From: Clostridia bacterium
Lineage (GTDB): Bacteria; Bacillota; Clostridia; Oscillospirales; RGIG8002
Direction: 5' to 3'
Assembly: GCA_017616855.1 (NCBI GenBank)
Contig: JAFZXI010000125.1
Coordinates: 1-42,939 of the forward strand
DNA: 42,939 nucleotides
The position numbers and the translations under genes were made by a program. Positions 1-40,665 of this stretch are shown here, one piece after another. How positions within the stretch are numbered: position 1 is the stretch's first letter; each line of letters starts with the position of its first letter. The notes under the pieces were generated by a model, which made no database searches, was not told the DNA's origin, and was given only the letters and a program-made list of their open reading frames with translations.

Positions 1-76
1 CGCGTTTCTCGCTCCGCTACCCTCGAGGGGAAGGCTTAACCCGTTATAACCGGCTTGTCATAGAGCCGCTTATATA

Positions 77-88
77 CTTTGCAAAGTA
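77..88 (+). promoter_or_regulatory. Leader element CTTTGCAAAGTA shared by both surface-protein genes
   Basis: The palindrome CTTTGCAAAG followed by TA lies 26 bp before the start codon at 115. Eleven bases of it (TTTGCAAAGTA) recur at 38727-38737, 29 bp before the second surface-protein gene. Both copies are followed by an A/T-rich spacer and AAAGGAGGAAA. I see no good -35/-10 pair in the 114 bp visible here, so the element may be a regulator site or part of the 5' untranslated leader. Confidence 0.45.
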
Positions 89-114
89 AAAAAACACCCA
101 AAGGAGGAAACACT

Positions 115-2028
115 ATGACGAAGAAAAGATCAGCAAAGAACGCGTTCATCAGTTCGCTGGTAATGCTGTGTCTTTGCGTGACCATGCTTGTCGGCACTAC
201 GTTCGCGTGGTATACCGACAGCGTGACGAGCGGCAGAAATACCATCGTCGCCGGCAGCTTGGACATGACGGTTACCGTCCGCACTGTGGATAACAACCAG
301 CAGGTAACTTGGGAAACCGTAGATGCTACGACCCCCGTATTCCCTGACAATCTCTCGTTCGAACCCGGCGCGGTGCACGTCGCTTACATCAAAGTCACCA
401 ACACCGGCGACCTTGCGTTCAAGTATAACGTCAAGGCGGTTGTTGACAACGAGATCCAGGGCACGAACCACGATAATCAGAAGTTCTCTCTTTCTAGTTA
501 TCTGAAGTTCAAAGCGGTTCCGGTCGATGACGTTTTCGGCTCCCGCGCTGAAGCGCTCACGGCTCTCGGCGACAATCCGCCCGCCCTCACGAGCGCTTCG
601 ATCACGGATGACGGCGTTTATCTCGCCGCCGGCGATCCCGATCCCTTCGTGATGCTCGCGCTCATCATCTACATGCCCGAGGACGTCGGCAACATCGCGA
701 ACCCGCTGCCCGGCGACGCCAACAAGCCGAAGATCACCTTCGGTATCGACGCGATTGCGACGCAGTATGTCTCTGAAAACGACAGCTTCAGCAACACTTA
801 TGACGCCAGCGCCACGATGCCTGCTACCGCTCAGAAGGCGGTTGAAACTACCGGCGCAACGACCATTACCGCCGGCGCTGTTACCGTTCAGGTGCCCGCC
901 GGCTCGGACAACGCCAGCACCAGCGATACCCTCTATCTTGACGTTAACAACGTCAACAACAACGATACTACCGGTGTTCTCTCGATGAATATCGACCTGG
1001 TCAATCAAAACGGCGATAAGGTCACCAACAGCACCAATCCGATGACCGTCGCGATTAACGTCGGCCCCGGCAAGGTTCTCACTTCCGTCAAGCACAACGG
1101 AAATGATGTTGCCAATTACACCTATGACGACGCTACCGGCATCCTGACCTTCGAGACCGCGTCCTTCAGCCCGTTTGCGATTACTTATATCGTGGGTAAG
1201 GGTGTTTCTAATGTAACCGAATGGAATGAGGCTCTCGCTGATGCTAGCGTTGATACCATTGTTCTGTTAGCTGATATTTCCCTTACAAGCGCCAACACTC
1301 TTAATAGGAATCTGACGCTGAACCTGAATGGTAAAGCTCTCACTTCTTCTGCGGTTTTGTTTAATATTTATGCAAATTGCGATTTGACGATTAAGGACAG
1401 TGTGGGGACCGGTACTATCACAGTTAACGCGAACAGAATCGTTTACTCTTCTGGCGGCGGTCTTGTTAAACTTGAAGGCGGTAATCTCAGTTTGATTTCC
1501 ACCGATAACTATGGTTACGGTGTTTTGGTTGGTTCCGGATCAAGTTTTGAGATGACCGGCGGATCTATCACTATCCCTAACGAAACAACGTCAACTTATA
1601 GTTACTGCGTGTGCAACAGCGGCTCAGGAACAGTCACTATTGCCGGCGGTGAACTTATTGCCAAGAGCTTTGGCGGTAACTACACCATTAGTGCAAGCGG
1701 TTCCGGCAATCTTTACATTACCGGCGGTCATATCACTGGTATTTATGGCAAAGATAACTGGGGCCTCGCAAGCACTCCGTATGTAATTTATAATACGGGA
1801 AGCGGTACTGCTTATATCTCTGGCGGATATATCAGAGCCGTTGGAAATAAAAATGATGCTGCAGCCGGACATTTGGTAGAAGGTAACGCAAGTATCACCG
1901 GTGGATACTTCGGAGGCGTGTATTTCTATAGCTTATCATCGGATCAAATTGCGCAGGGTTATGCTTCTAACCTCAACGATGACAGCAGTACAAGTGCTGA
2001 TTATAAGTATGTCGTACTTCCGCAATAA
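115..2028 (+). CDS. SipW-type signal peptide, TasA/camelysin-like surface protein with beta-helix C-terminus
   Basis: A 637-aa secreted protein. ATG 115 is chosen over the in-frame ATG 79 because AAAGGAGGAAA lies just before it and the signal peptide then starts normally (MTKKRSAKNAF). The signal peptide ends in TTFAWYTDSVTSG, the signature of SipW-processed TasA/camelysin fibre proteins. Residues 35-240 resemble the TasA-type beta domain. A following module of about 120 residues (to SFSPFAITY) is shared with the gene at 38767. The last 270 residues are Gly/Ser/Thr-rich with repeated GG-x-I/L turns, as in right-handed beta-helix adhesins. From about nt 1195 the DNA becomes visibly more AT-rich, so this part may have been acquired separately. 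A cell-surface matrix or adhesion role is inferred; no sortase motif is seen and no sipW is in the window. Confidence 0.75.
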   Translation: MTKKRSAKNAFISSLVMLCLCVTMLVGTTFAWYTDSVTSGRNTIVAGSLDMTVTVRTVDNNQQVTWETVDATTPVFPDNLSFEPGAVHVAYIKVTNTGDLAFKYNVKAVVDNEIQGTNHDNQKFSLSSYLKFKAVPVDDVFGSRAEALTALGDNPPALTSASITDDGVYLAAGDPDPFVMLALIIYMPEDVGNIANPLPGDANKPKITFGIDAIATQYVSENDSFSNTYDASATMPATAQKAVETTGATTITAGAVTVQVPAGSDNASTSDTLYLDVNNVNNNDTTGVLSMNIDLVNQNGDKVTNSTNPMTVAINVGPGKVLTSVKHNGNDVANYTYDDATGILTFETASFSPFAITYIVGKGVSNVTEWNEALADASVDTIVLLADISLTSANTLNRNLTLNLNGKALTSSAVLFNIYANCDLTIKDSVGTGTITVNANRIVYSSGGGLVKLEGGNLSLISTDNYGYGVLVGSGSSFEMTGGSITIPNETTSTYSYCVCNSGSGTVTIAGGELIAKSFGGNYTISASGSGNLYITGGHITGIYGKDNWGLASTPYVIYNTGSGTAYISGGYIRAVGNKNDAAAGHLVEGNASITGGYFGGVYFYSLSSDQIAQGYASNLNDDSSTSADYKYVVLPQ

Positions 2029-27317: not shown

Positions 27318-29614
27318 TCCTCGCGAAAACCGCGGGTTTCTGTTTCGGAGTCGCCCGCGCAGTCGAACTTGCCCGCGGACTTATCGCCTCCGGTAAACCC
27401 TCCGCGGCGCTCGGCGAGCCGATACATAACCCCGCCTTCACGAAGGAGCTTCTGGAAGGCGGCATGCGCCTGATTGCGTCGCCCGACGAAGCGCGGAAGG
27501 GCGAAACGGTGCTTATCCGTTCCCACGGCGAAGGTCCGGATACCTACGCGGCTCTCGCCGCCGCCGGAGCGCAGACCGCGGACGCGACCTGTCCCTTCGT
27601 CAAGCGCATCCACGAGCTCGCGGCGTCGCTCGGAGAGGGCGACCTGCTGCTCCTTGCGGGCGACGAAACGCATCCGGAGATAAAAGGGATAATAAAATAC
27701 GCAAAAAGTGCCGTTTTTGTCTTCAAAAATGCTGATTTTTTCAAAAAAACTCTTTACGAATCGAGAATTACGGAGTATAATAATATAATTCTGGCGGCTC
27801 AAACGACCTTTTCCGTAGCCGAGTGGGAGAAATGTGCGGCGCTCGCCGCTGAACTGCTCCCGCAGGCGCGAGTGGAAAAAACGATCTGCGGCGCCACCGC
27901 CGCGAGACAGAAGGAAGCCGCGGAGCTTGCCGCGAAGTGCGACGCGATGATTGTCGTAGGCGGCAGAAACAGCTCCAACACCGCGAAGCTTTACGAGCTT
28001 TGCCGCAAGCATTGCGACAATACCGTTCTTATCGAGAGCGCAAGCGAGCTCGATATGAGCCGGTATGAATATACCGATATTGTCGGGATTACCGCCGGAG
28101 CGTCCACTCCGTCGGGAATAATTGAGGAGGTTGTTCACAAGATGAACGAAGAAACAAAAGATGCGATCATCGAATCGCAGGAGCCCGAGGCGATAGCCGA
28201 GGAGACCAAAGCGGCCGAGGCCGTTGAAACTGAAGTCAAGGAGGAAGAACCTGTTAAGGAAGTAGACCTTGACGAGATGAGCTTTGCCGAAGCAGTCGAT
28301 TACACGTTCAAGACTTTATATACAGGGGAAAGGGTAACCGGAAGAGTTATAGGCATAACTCCGACGGAGGTACAGATCGAGCTGAATACCAAGCACTACG
28401 CTTTTATTCCGCTTGCCGAGCTGAGCAGTGACACGACCAAGTCGCCCGAAGAACTCGTTTCCATCGGCGACGAGCTCGACCTTATCGTCACCAGAGTCAA
28501 CGACGTTGACGGCATGGTCACGCTTTCCAAGAAGCGTGTCGACGCGATGAGGGGCTATGAAGAAATCGAAAAGGCCGTCGGAACTCAGGTCCCGCTCGAA
28601 GGCACCGTCACCGACGCCGTCAACGGCGGCGTAATCGCGATTGTCAACGGCGTGCGCGTGTTTATTCCCGCGTCCCGCACCGGCATTCCGCGCGACGGAG
28701 ACCTTTCCGTCCTGGTCGGCACCACCCAGAAGATAGTGATCCTTGAGATCAATCCCCGCCGCCGCAGAGTCATCGGCTCCATCAAGGCCGGCGAACGCCG
28801 CACCCGCAAGGAGCTCGCGGCGCAGCTCTGGTCCGAGATTGAGGTCGGCAAGAAGTATACCGGCAAGGTCAAGTCCCTTACCAGCTACGGCGCGTTCGTC
28901 GACATCGGCGGCGTGGACGGCATGGTCCACGTTTCCGAGATGTCCTGGGAGCGCGGCAAGAAGCCGGAAGACATCTTCAAGATCGGCGACAGAGTCGAAG
29001 TCTACGTCAAGGATTTCGATCAGGAGAAAAAGCGCATTTCCCTCGGCTACCGCAAGGAAGAGGATAACCCGTGGAACACCTTCACCGAGAACTTCGCCAT
29101 CGGCGACGTCATCGACGTGACCGTCAACCGCCTGATGAGCTTCGGCGCTTTCGTCGCCATCGTTCCGGGCATCGACGGACTTATCCACATTTCGCAGATC
29201 GCGGACCGCCGCATCGAGAAGGCGTCCGACGAGCTGAAGGTCGGCCAGCAGGTCAAGGCGAAGATAACCTCTATCGACCCCGAGAACCACAAGGTCGGGC
29301 TCTCCATCAGAGCGCTTCTCCCGAAGAAGACCGAGGAAGCCCCCGCTGAGGAAGCCGCCGCCGAAGCGACCGAAGCCGTCGCCGAAGCCGCCGAGGATCC
29401 CGCCGCGATAGAAGTCCCCGCCGAGGTCGCTCCCGCCGCTGAAGCGGTCGAGGAAGCCGCAGCGGTCGTTGAAGAGGCCGCCGCTCCCGTCGAGGAAGCT
29501 GCCGCCGCTGCCGAAGAGACTGCCGAAGCGGTAGAAGAAGCCGCCTCTGCCGTCGAAGAGAAGGTCGAGGAAGTCGCTGAAGCCGTCGAGGAAAAGACGG
29601 AAGCAGCCGAGTAA
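27308..29614 (+). CDS. ispH: IspH (HMB-PP reductase) fused to ribosomal protein S1-like domains
   Basis: One 768-aa frame. Residues 1-281 are IspH, the last enzyme of the MEP isoprenoid pathway, with the three [4Fe-4S] cysteines in AGFCFGVA, ATCPFVKR and TICGATAARQ. An acidic linker (about 282-330) leads to four S1 RNA-binding domains (about 338-405, 424-495, 513-580 and 598-667). The last 100 residues are an almost pure Ala/Glu/Val repeat. IspH-S1 fusions are known in many Clostridia, so the fusion itself is expected, but the long acidic tail is unusual. It ends the rsmD operon with a strong terminator. Confidence 0.95.
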   Translation: MEVILAKTAGFCFGVARAVELARGLIASGKPSAALGEPIHNPAFTKELLEGGMRLIASPDEARKGETVLIRSHGEGPDTYAALAAAGAQTADATCPFVKRIHELAASLGEGDLLLLAGDETHPEIKGIIKYAKSAVFVFKNADFFKKTLYESRITEYNNIILAAQTTFSVAEWEKCAALAAELLPQARVEKTICGATAARQKEAAELAAKCDAMIVVGGRNSSNTAKLYELCRKHCDNTVLIESASELDMSRYEYTDIVGITAGASTPSGIIEEVVHKMNEETKDAIIESQEPEAIAEETKAAEAVETEVKEEEPVKEVDLDEMSFAEAVDYTFKTLYTGERVTGRVIGITPTEVQIELNTKHYAFIPLAELSSDTTKSPEELVSIGDELDLIVTRVNDVDGMVTLSKKRVDAMRGYEEIEKAVGTQVPLEGTVTDAVNGGVIAIVNGVRVFIPASRTGIPRDGDLSVLVGTTQKIVILEINPRRRRVIGSIKAGERRTRKELAAQLWSEIEVGKKYTGKVKSLTSYGAFVDIGGVDGMVHVSEMSWERGKKPEDIFKIGDRVEVYVKDFDQEKKRISLGYRKEEDNPWNTFTENFAIGDVIDVTVNRLMSFGAFVAIVPGIDGLIHISQIADRRIEKASDELKVGQQVKAKITSIDPENHKVGLSIRALLPKKTEEAPAEEAAAEATEAVAEAAEDPAAIEVPAEVAPAAEAVEEAAAVVEEAAAPVEEAAAAAEETAEAVEEAASAVEEKVEEVAEAVEEKTEAAE

Positions 29615-38254: not shown

Positions 38255-38308
38255 CGGCAAAAAGACTGATTGTCCTTACCGCCAATCAGTCAAAATCAAT
38301 AAAAATAC

Positions 38309-38343
38309 AAGAGCGTATACGCGTTTGCGTATACGCTCTTTTG
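38309..38343. terminator. Terminator after pduL
   Basis: A perfect 14-bp stem (38309-38322 with 38327-38340) with a GTTT loop and TTG after it. On the minus strand it is followed by GTATTTTTATT, so it should also stop leftward transcription from 38421. Confidence 0.85.
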
Positions 38344-38350
38344 TTCTGCA

Positions 38351-38368
38351 ACATAATTGCTATTATGT
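38351..38368 (+). repeat. Left 18-bp inverted repeat of the putative invertible segment
   Basis: ACATAATTGCTATTATGT. It is an exact inverted copy of 38551-38568, and each copy is itself a near-palindrome (7-bp arms ACATAAT/ATTATGT around an asymmetric TGCT core). Confidence 0.8.
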
Positions 38369-38550
38369 AGTCGTGCGTTTCTGCCAAAAGGGCACTAATT
38401 ACAGTATCAAGCGATAATACAAATCGTATTTTATACGATTATTTAATAAATGTCAATACTTTTATAGAAAAAACGCCTGATTTACTCCGTGTTTTAAGCA
38501 ACCGACGCCGGTTTGAAACGAGATTTCCCCCGTTATTATTCCGAATTATA
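38369..38550. other. AT-rich putative invertible promoter segment
   Basis: This is the stretch between the two inverted repeats. It is clearly more AT-rich than the flanking genes, has no plausible gene, and contains a strong leftward promoter overlapping an 8-bp inverted repeat (38422-38429 with 38433-38440). In the present orientation the promoter reads into the pduL terminator; inverted it would read toward the surface-protein gene at 38767. Confidence 0.6.
38428..38456 (-). promoter_or_regulatory. Orphan leftward promoter inside the putative invertible segment
   Basis: On the minus strand TTGACA (38456-38451), 17 bp, TAAAAT (38433-38428), with a predicted start near 38421. No gene follows in this direction: the left repeat, a terminator and the antisense of pduL come next. 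If the segment were inverted, the start would fall near 38498 and reach the ATG at 38767 with a leader of about 270 nt. Confidence 0.75.
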
Positions 38551-38568
38551 ACATAATAGCAATTATGT
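38551..38568 (-). repeat. Right 18-bp inverted repeat of the putative invertible segment
   Basis: It reads ACATAATAGCAATTATGT on the plus strand, the exact reverse complement of 38351-38368. The centres are exactly 200 bp apart. Confidence 0.8.
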
Positions 38569-38677: not shown

Positions 38678-38726
38678 CGTTCGCGTCCCCACCCCGTCAA
38701 GAAGAGGTCATGCTCTTTTTGAATAT

Positions 38727-38737
38727 TTTGCAAAGTA
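38727..38737 (+). promoter_or_regulatory. Leader element TTTGCAAAGTA, second copy
   Basis: The same 11 bp as at 78-88, again with an A/T-rich spacer and AAAGGAGGAAA, 29 bp before the start codon. Confidence 0.45.
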
Positions 38738-38766: not shown

Positions 38767-40665
38767 ATGAAGAAAAAGTCAACGAAGCGCGCGCTGATAA
38801 GCTCCCTGCTTATCCTTGCGATGTGCTTCACCATGCTGGCCGGAACTACCTTCGCGTGGTTCACCGACAGCGTAACGAGCTCCGGCAACAAGATCGTTTC
38901 CGGTAAGCTCGATATCGCGCTGTATCTGGCTGATGCCAACGGTGTCTACAATGAGATCACCGGCGCCAGCGATCCCATTTTCGGCAAAGCCGATTCTCTC
39001 GTTGCGCAAAACAACATTCAGGACACCCTTTGGGAGCCCGGCAAGACTCAGATCGCTTTCCTGCAGATCAAGAATCTGGGCAATCTTTGCGCCAAATACA
39101 GAGTCATCATCGATGTGATCGACGGTGGTCTGATCGGTTCTCTCGAGTATGCCGTTATCGGCAACGCCGAGGCTGGGAATTATCCGGCCGCTACCCTCGC
39201 TCAGATGAAGTGGACCGACATCACGGGCGCGCAGGGCGTTGAAAGCGGCGATCTCGCCGCCGGCCGCATCACTGCCGCCAATCAGGGCGCCCTTGCCCCT
39301 GCCGGCGATACCTACGATGCGACTGATGCTGTTACCCAGCAGGTCACCACCATCGACGACAGCGACTACTTTGCTCTCGCTATCCACATGAAGGAGACCG
39401 CGGGCAACGAGTATCAGGAGAAGGACGTCACCATCGACATCACCGTCGTTGCCACTCAGGACAACGTCGAAGAAGACAGCTTCGATAAGAACTATGACTT
39501 TGACGCCACGCTGCCCGCCGTTGCGAGCGTAACGGTCGCCCCGAACGGCGCCGCTTCCTCGATCACCGCGGGACCGGTCACCGTAGCTCTGCCCGCGAAC
39601 ACCGATCCTAACGCCGCCAAAGAGTACAGACTGGACGTTTCCAACGCCAGCACCGAAGTTGACGCCGCGAGCGGCGAGACTTCCGTTGCTTTTGACGCTA
39701 CTCTGTATCTGAACGATACCAAGGTCACCTCCACCACAAGCGGTAATATTTATGCGATGACCCTGACCCTCCCCGCCGGCGCGAACGTCACTTCCGTCAA
39801 GCATAACGGAACGGCTCTGACCGCCGCGACCACCGGCGCGGATCAGACCTATACTTACGATCCCGCCACGGGCGTGCTGACGATCTACACCAAGTCCTTC
39901 AGCCCGTTTGAGGTCACTTATACTGTTCCGATCCCTGTCACAGGAATTGCGCTTGATCAATCGGCGCTTGACGTTGAAATGGGAACGACCGCAACGCTTA
40001 CGGCGACGGTTTCGCCCGATAACGCTGACGATAAGACCGTGACATGGACTTCGTCCAACGAAGCGGTCGCCACCGTTGCGGACGGCGTTGTCACCGGCGT
40101 CGCTCCCGGCACCGCGACGATTACCGCTGCTGCAGGCGACTTCAGCGATGCCTGCACGGTAACGGTTTTCAAAGAGTTTGTAGTGAAAACTGCGTGGCAG
40201 TCAGGAAATACTGTAATAACTACATCCGGAAACTTTTCACCTATTTTAACTTGTAATCCGTCTATTGTCGCTTACTCGATTTTTGATGGAAATACCAGAA
40301 TCACAAAGGAAGTACATTTCTGTTTTAACAGAGTCGAAAAGCAAACAATCGATTCAAATACTTGCAAGATTATCATTGATTTGGAGATAAAGGATGCGGA
40401 TGGCAACGATTTGGTATTGAAGCCGGGTAATTCAAATCCTTATTACCCGGAAAATGGATTTGAATACTTTAAGGCTTATATAAACCTGCTCGAAGCTTTC
40501 CCGTCCGGTTATTCCGTATCGGAAGTTAAAGTGAACAACAACTCTTTAACCAAGACAACGGCCGATAATCCGGCTATTGGAGAATACCTTATCGGGGTAG
40601 ATGGCATTTATCTCCAGTCTATGACAGCGGGGCTTATTGAGGTTACGTTGACAAAAACGAACTGA
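38767..40665 (+). CDS. SipW-type signal peptide, TasA/camelysin-like surface protein with Ig-like (Big_2) domain
   Basis: A 632-aa paralogue of the protein at 115. ATG 38767 has AAAGGAGGAAAA upstream. The signal peptide (MKKKSTKRALISSLLILAMC) ends in TTFAWFTDSVTSSGNKIVSG, the SipW/TasA signature. A TasA-like beta domain (about 35-250) is followed by the shared module ending in SFSPFEVTY (near 395). A Big_2 domain (about 398-480, VTGIALDQSALDVEMGTTATL, VTWTSSNEAVATVADG) and an unrecognised AT-rich C-terminus (about 483-632) follow. Surface fibre or adhesin function is inferred. Its expression is probably set by the putative invertible promoter upstream. Confidence 0.78.
   Translation: MKKKSTKRALISSLLILAMCFTMLAGTTFAWFTDSVTSSGNKIVSGKLDIALYLADANGVYNEITGASDPIFGKADSLVAQNNIQDTLWEPGKTQIAFLQIKNLGNLCAKYRVIIDVIDGGLIGSLEYAVIGNAEAGNYPAATLAQMKWTDITGAQGVESGDLAAGRITAANQGALAPAGDTYDATDAVTQQVTTIDDSDYFALAIHMKETAGNEYQEKDVTIDITVVATQDNVEEDSFDKNYDFDATLPAVASVTVAPNGAASSITAGPVTVALPANTDPNAAKEYRLDVSNASTEVDAASGETSVAFDATLYLNDTKVTSTTSGNIYAMTLTLPAGANVTSVKHNGTALTAATTGADQTYTYDPATGVLTIYTKSFSPFEVTYTVPIPVTGIALDQSALDVEMGTTATLTATVSPDNADDKTVTWTSSNEAVATVADGVVTGVAPGTATITAAAGDFSDACTVTVFKEFVVKTAWQSGNTVITTSGNFSPILTCNPSIVAYSIFDGNTRITKEVHFCFNRVEKQTIDSNTCKIIIDLEIKDADGNDLVLKPGNSNPYYPENGFEYFKAYINLLEAFPSGYSVSEVKVNNNSLTKTTADNPAIGEYLIGVDGIYLQSMTAGLIEVTLTKTN

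Follow-up and report, generated by a model that had tools for sequence, protein, structure and literature searches.

A putative invertible promoter upstream of a SipW-dependent surface-protein gene of a Clostridia bacterium, and a family of related paired sites in Clostridia

The window, i.e., the whole analysed stretch of 42,939 nucleotides from a Clostridia bacterium (contig JAFZXI010000125.1), carries between positions 38351 and 38568 what we regard, with a rough probability of 90%, as a phase-variation switch, in which a recombinase of the family termed C98 here would invert a promoter segment and which would be OFF in the assembled orientation. An earlier note on this DNA had proposed such a switch, and support for it now comes from inverse cores in paired sites of other genomes, recombinase genes adjoining these sites, flipped interiors in homologous loci, and similar switches that precede paralogs of the gene in sister species. 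Switches of this kind, mostly adjoined by a recombinase gene of their own, are widespread in Clostridia of gut and rumen.

Sites, predicted promoter, and presumably controlled gene in the window

The left recombination site (ACATAAT-TGCT-ATTATGT, 38351–38368, plus strand) and the right one (38551–38568, minus strand) were found by sequence comparison to be exact reverse complements over 18 nt. As the earlier note had it, their centres, like their starts, lie 200 bp apart, and 7-bp palindromic arms (ACATAAT/ATTATGT) surround an asymmetric core (TGCT/AGCA). They enclose a putative invertible segment of 182 nt (38369–38550), and the same motif forms 85 pairs overall. Further copies with up to three mismatches were found neither in the rest of the window (shuffles expect 0.00) nor across the 1.8-Mb genome. 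A reading of the site as a dispersed element was dropped, since it has no other copy in the genome.

A consensus match to a sigma-70-type promoter (TTGACA-17-TAAAAT, score 11/12) is located inside the segment on the minus strand (38456–38428) and points away from the surface-protein gene, towards a two-way intrinsic terminator (38309–38340, terminator scan) between the switch and a pduL-type gene, a phosphate propanoyltransferase gene (PTAC, PF06130). Both the promoter and its aim had been described correctly before, and mapping the inversion again placed the promoter at 38463–38491 on the plus strand, where it would sit afterwards. The terminator would end the OFF-orientation transcript. From the terminator to the start codon (ATG) at 38767, a consensus scan revealed no promoter-like site on the plus strand; a promoter of another type may lie nearer to the surface-protein gene. 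A perfect palindrome (ATCGTAT-TTT-ATACGAT, 38423–38439), read from the sequence, covers the -10 box and is a possible operator. When OFF, the promoter would give rise to a short RNA of about 110 nt (window 38304–38420, minus strand) terminating at the two-way terminator. Rfam matches over the terminator region (GibS, icaR 3' UTR, and others) were far below the gathering scores and were taken as chance.

The presumably controlled gene (38767–40665, plus strand) encodes a surface protein of 632 aa with a SipW-dependent-type signal peptide (model TIGR04088, scored above the cut-off) and one Big_2 domain. It had been called TasA-like; Pfam gave Big_2 only and no match to a TasA/camelysin family, so that the label is loose. 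Upstream of the gene, a leader hairpin (TCAAGAAGAG-GTCATG-CTCTTTTTGA plus ATATTTTGCAAA, 38697–38734, plus strand) was detected that is common to paralogous genes of the genus. It consists of a 10-bp stem, a loop bearing GTCAT, and the tail ATA(T/C)TTTGCAAA, and it precedes SipW-dependent paralogs also at window positions 50–90 and at loci L054, L055, L056, L058, L061, L063, L064, L066, L069, and L071. Two-sided base-pair changes were found at 5 of 10 stem positions, tallied on hand-set stems, the automatic alignment having put the stems out of register. A comparison with Rfam gave no match, and we consider the hairpin a candidate cis-acting RNA. The contig itself begins just 5' of another paralogous SipW-dependent gene (start near 115), and this stretch (window 1–120) resembles a repeat (CTCCGCTACCCTCGAGGGGAAG) also seen before paralogs in the sister genomes G001 and G003.

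Paired sites and their recombinase across Clostridia

When 84,980 species genomes were scanned for site pairs, with both cores left free, at least 118 stretches emerged, nearly all of them from Clostridia. Family counts were taken from 80 loci read, with 81 pairs, among the matches listed. There, the two cores were exactly inverse in 78 of 81 pairs, direct in none, and palindromic in none, while a core match by chance is expected at 1/256 per pair; of the three pairs that deviate, one comes from a Bartonella contig. The 85 pairs overall displayed 51 distinct cores, none of them self-palindromic, as expected if the core has to set direction. Read outward, the half-site consensus is ATTATGT(T/G)GT(A).

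Enclosed promoters pointed towards the far gene in 25 and towards the recombinase in 39 of 64 scored pairs. Interiors flipped relative to their flanks were identified for L107/L154 (flank 86% over 595 bp, interior 81% over 185 bp) and L119/L165 (flank 82% over 598 bp, interior 86% over 208 bp), and the homologous loci L153 and L165 likewise differ by an inverted interior. These comparisons show that both orientations of the predicted promoter occur between homologous loci of other species. Three-site arrays with two direct copies about 32–74 bp apart and one inverted copy were seen at L144, L147, L249, L250, and L260; they would permit two inversions of unequal lengths. Contigs commonly stop at or near a switch or recombinase (G007:C11, G007:C7, G034:C42, G003:C4, G084:C11/C12), which is expected if both orientations confuse assembly.

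Start-to-start spacings peaked at about 229–233, 239–245, and 247–253 bp. A Rayleigh test over 78 loci gave R 0.55 and nR2 of about 23 with a best period of 10.25–10.5 bp, and pairs from other genomes, mostly beyond the distance range of the first scan, agreed in phase (p about 0.002), the p-values for spacing being optimistic because the loci share ancestry. The 200 bp of the window switch are moderately in phase (cosine 0.67) and unusual in length, as most pairs span 228–258 bp, which is in part an effect of the range of the scan.

The absence of similar sites near any recombinase gene would, according to the earlier note, have spoken against a switch. Clearly, such sites do lie near one: a tyrosine recombinase of the C98 family was present in 65 of the 80 loci read among the matches listed, and its 3' end faced the inverton in 64 of 64 scored pairs, typically about 14 bp off and usually within about 20 bp. 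Among 117 genomes of the order, the recombinase occurred in 17 of 20 site-bearing genomes compared to 30 of the 97 that lack an exact site (Fisher p 1e-5). The three site-bearing genomes that lack it harbored one unpaired site apiece, and many family enzymes in genomes without an exact site had a variant pair 3' of the stop codon, with arms ACA(G/A)AAT or ACATTAT. Placed on a recombinase tree of 100 rows, arm type required three changes; 15 of the arm labels were assigned manually, using either the inverted-repeat list or sites at a greater distance from the gene. The nearest solved structures to the family are XerC-like, XerA, and XerD proteins.

Several genomes carry many recombinase paralogs (15 copies in G034, 7 in G007; loci L244, L245, L254, L256, L257, and L259), and some paralogs in such recombinase-rich genomes have ACATTAT-type sites of their own. 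At L223 (10373–12819), on a contig from a viral collection, a holin-like frame is followed by the recombinase, a switch with core TGCG, and an SPFH-like gene resembling SPFH genes that adjoin other switches; we read this locus as a phage or prophage edge. Plasmid pMM59_01 of Pusillibacter faecalis (L224) carries a family recombinase, then an inverted repeat, and then an S-layer homology gene. At L149 (4813–6453), a frame opens with a signal peptide and later matches large serine recombinase domains, perhaps owing to an element inserted in the frame.

The genus and competing explanations

The genus, which makes up its entire family, comprises four genomes with one genome per species. A segment orthologous to the window switch was not found in the other three, and no site pair was found beside any of the four genus recombinases, which form one clade nested among enzymes with ACATAAT sites. 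As the earlier note had stated, the recombinase is not in the window: the window genome has a single C98-family ortholog, an XerD-like enzyme on another contig (C98, about 27,804–28,664). Being the lone ortholog and encoded apart from the switch, it should act in trans. Its catalytic residues R, K, H, R, H, and Y are all kept.

Sites of the form ACATAAT-NNNN-ATTATGT are located 5' of several paralogs of the window surface-protein gene in sister genome G002. Six pairs (cores TGGC, AGGG, TGAC, AAAT, GAGC, and GCAT) were identified there and one (core CAGT) in G001. All seven are intact or one arm base off, and the cores are inverse inside each pair and different from locus to locus. The promoters enclosed by these pairs (TTGATT-17-TATAAT or close to it), located by consensus, were directed towards a surface-protein gene in 7 of 7, compared to which the window promoter is the one pointing away. 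One segment (G002:C56) is flanked by two divergent surface-protein genes, so that a flip would exchange which of them is expressed. At G001 locus L066 (4155–5592), a 519-bp switch was seen with a divergent signal-peptidase-like gene on one side (a weak match to TIGR02228, under the cut-off) and a gene for a SipW-dependent protein on the other.

A once-active switch, since locked in one orientation by loss of recombinase activity on it, would also fit a recombinase that has no switch of its own in the genus, and at two G002 loci, L054 (15131/15374) and L063 (499/701), one site is intact while the other has decayed. Yet neither window site deviates in any of its 18 bp, the C98 recombinase is intact in all catalytic residues, and the seven sister-species pairs persist intact or nearly so; we consider a fixed switch unlikely and infer that the window copy still flips. 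Slightly less probable still is flipping by another enzyme of the genome, namely the XerC-like enzyme on C128 or the large serine recombinase on C13, both of which are present. The enzymes adjoining sites in 65 of 80 loci are of the C98 family, however, and site arms follow the tree of this family, while the C128 gene occurs in 4 of 4 genus genomes; these observations point to the C98 recombinase as the enzyme that would cut the window sites. A very improbable alternative, which core matching and the association with recombinases led us to reject, takes the palindromes as operators at which a dimeric regulator would loop or repress the enclosed promoter, with no inversion. This would suit near-palindromic sites close to a promoter and also helical phasing, as looped operators too would show it, but it needs neither cores that vary by locus yet are inverse within 78 of 81 pairs, nor arms that track recombinase phylogeny, nor flipped interiors, and it leaves the adjoining recombinase genes unneeded.

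Proposed mechanism and known systems

In the promoter-inversion reading, the C98 XerD-like recombinase, encoded elsewhere in the genome, would bind ATTATGT(T/G)GT half-sites and exchange strands across the TNNNNA core of both inverted sites, whereby the 182-bp segment would flip and carry the promoter along. In the assembled orientation, this promoter points at the terminator (OFF), and inversion would turn it towards the SipW-dependent surface-protein gene (ON), which it probably drives, judging from the match to the promoter consensus. Beyond the single locus, one orphan XerD-like recombinase might run several promoter switches before SipW-dependent paralogs, the arms serving as the name of the enzyme, the core as a private address of the locus, and phasing limiting the spacings that can synapse; for this wider scheme we see the chances as evenly balanced. 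A different 4-bp core per locus would, as part of the private-address idea, allow independent flipping without rearrangements between loci.

Fixed arms, free but inverse cores, phasing of about 10.5 bp, and a recombinase 3' end at the site make up a simple, searchable rule by which switches can be looked for across Clostridia and paired with their enzymes, including orphan switches like that of the window. The findings also suggest that, in uncultured Clostridia of rumen and gut, a single recombinase makes the expression of surface proteins phase-variable at many loci.

In the searchable literature, a search for the exact site motif gave nothing beyond PMC11892184, and no earlier description was found there of a trans-acting set with private cores, of a match between arms and enzyme clade, or of helical phasing for such switches. 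According to that paper (PMC11892184, Microbiome 2025, hCom2 gut community), inverton group 139 comprises 33 invertons, 32 of them from Clostridia, has a statistical link to a tyrosine-type recombinase close by (invertase group 35), and shows both orientations in reads; the two examples printed there are spaced 231 and 241 bp from start to start (PMC11892184), which resembles the family found here. Judging from the spacings, the class of the hosts, and the type of enzyme, our family is probably inverton group 139 together with its invertase group 35, so that its kind is already known. A difference lies in the position of the enzyme: in group 139, nearly all members have the recombinase within 5 kb (PMC11892184), as does the wider family found here, whereas in the window genus it is encoded away from the switches, of which it should serve several in trans; for the window locus, the only ortholog is that on contig C98.

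The fim switch of Escherichia coli (FimB/FimE), as summarised in PMC2784873, is similar in that a promoter moved by dedicated recombinases turns a surface structure ON or OFF, and it differs by two recombinases encoded beside the switch and a Gram-negative host. By analogy, the nearest trans-acting parallel to the window switch is cwpV/RecV of Clostridioides difficile, where an inverted segment of about 200 bp likewise lies before a surface-protein gene and is flipped in trans by an XerC/XerD-family tyrosine recombinase encoded elsewhere (PMC2784873). The cwpV switch has imperfect 21-bp repeats and no promoter in its segment, and a terminator-based model has been proposed for it (PMC2784873); its promoter is located outside the segment, whereas that of the window switch lies inside.
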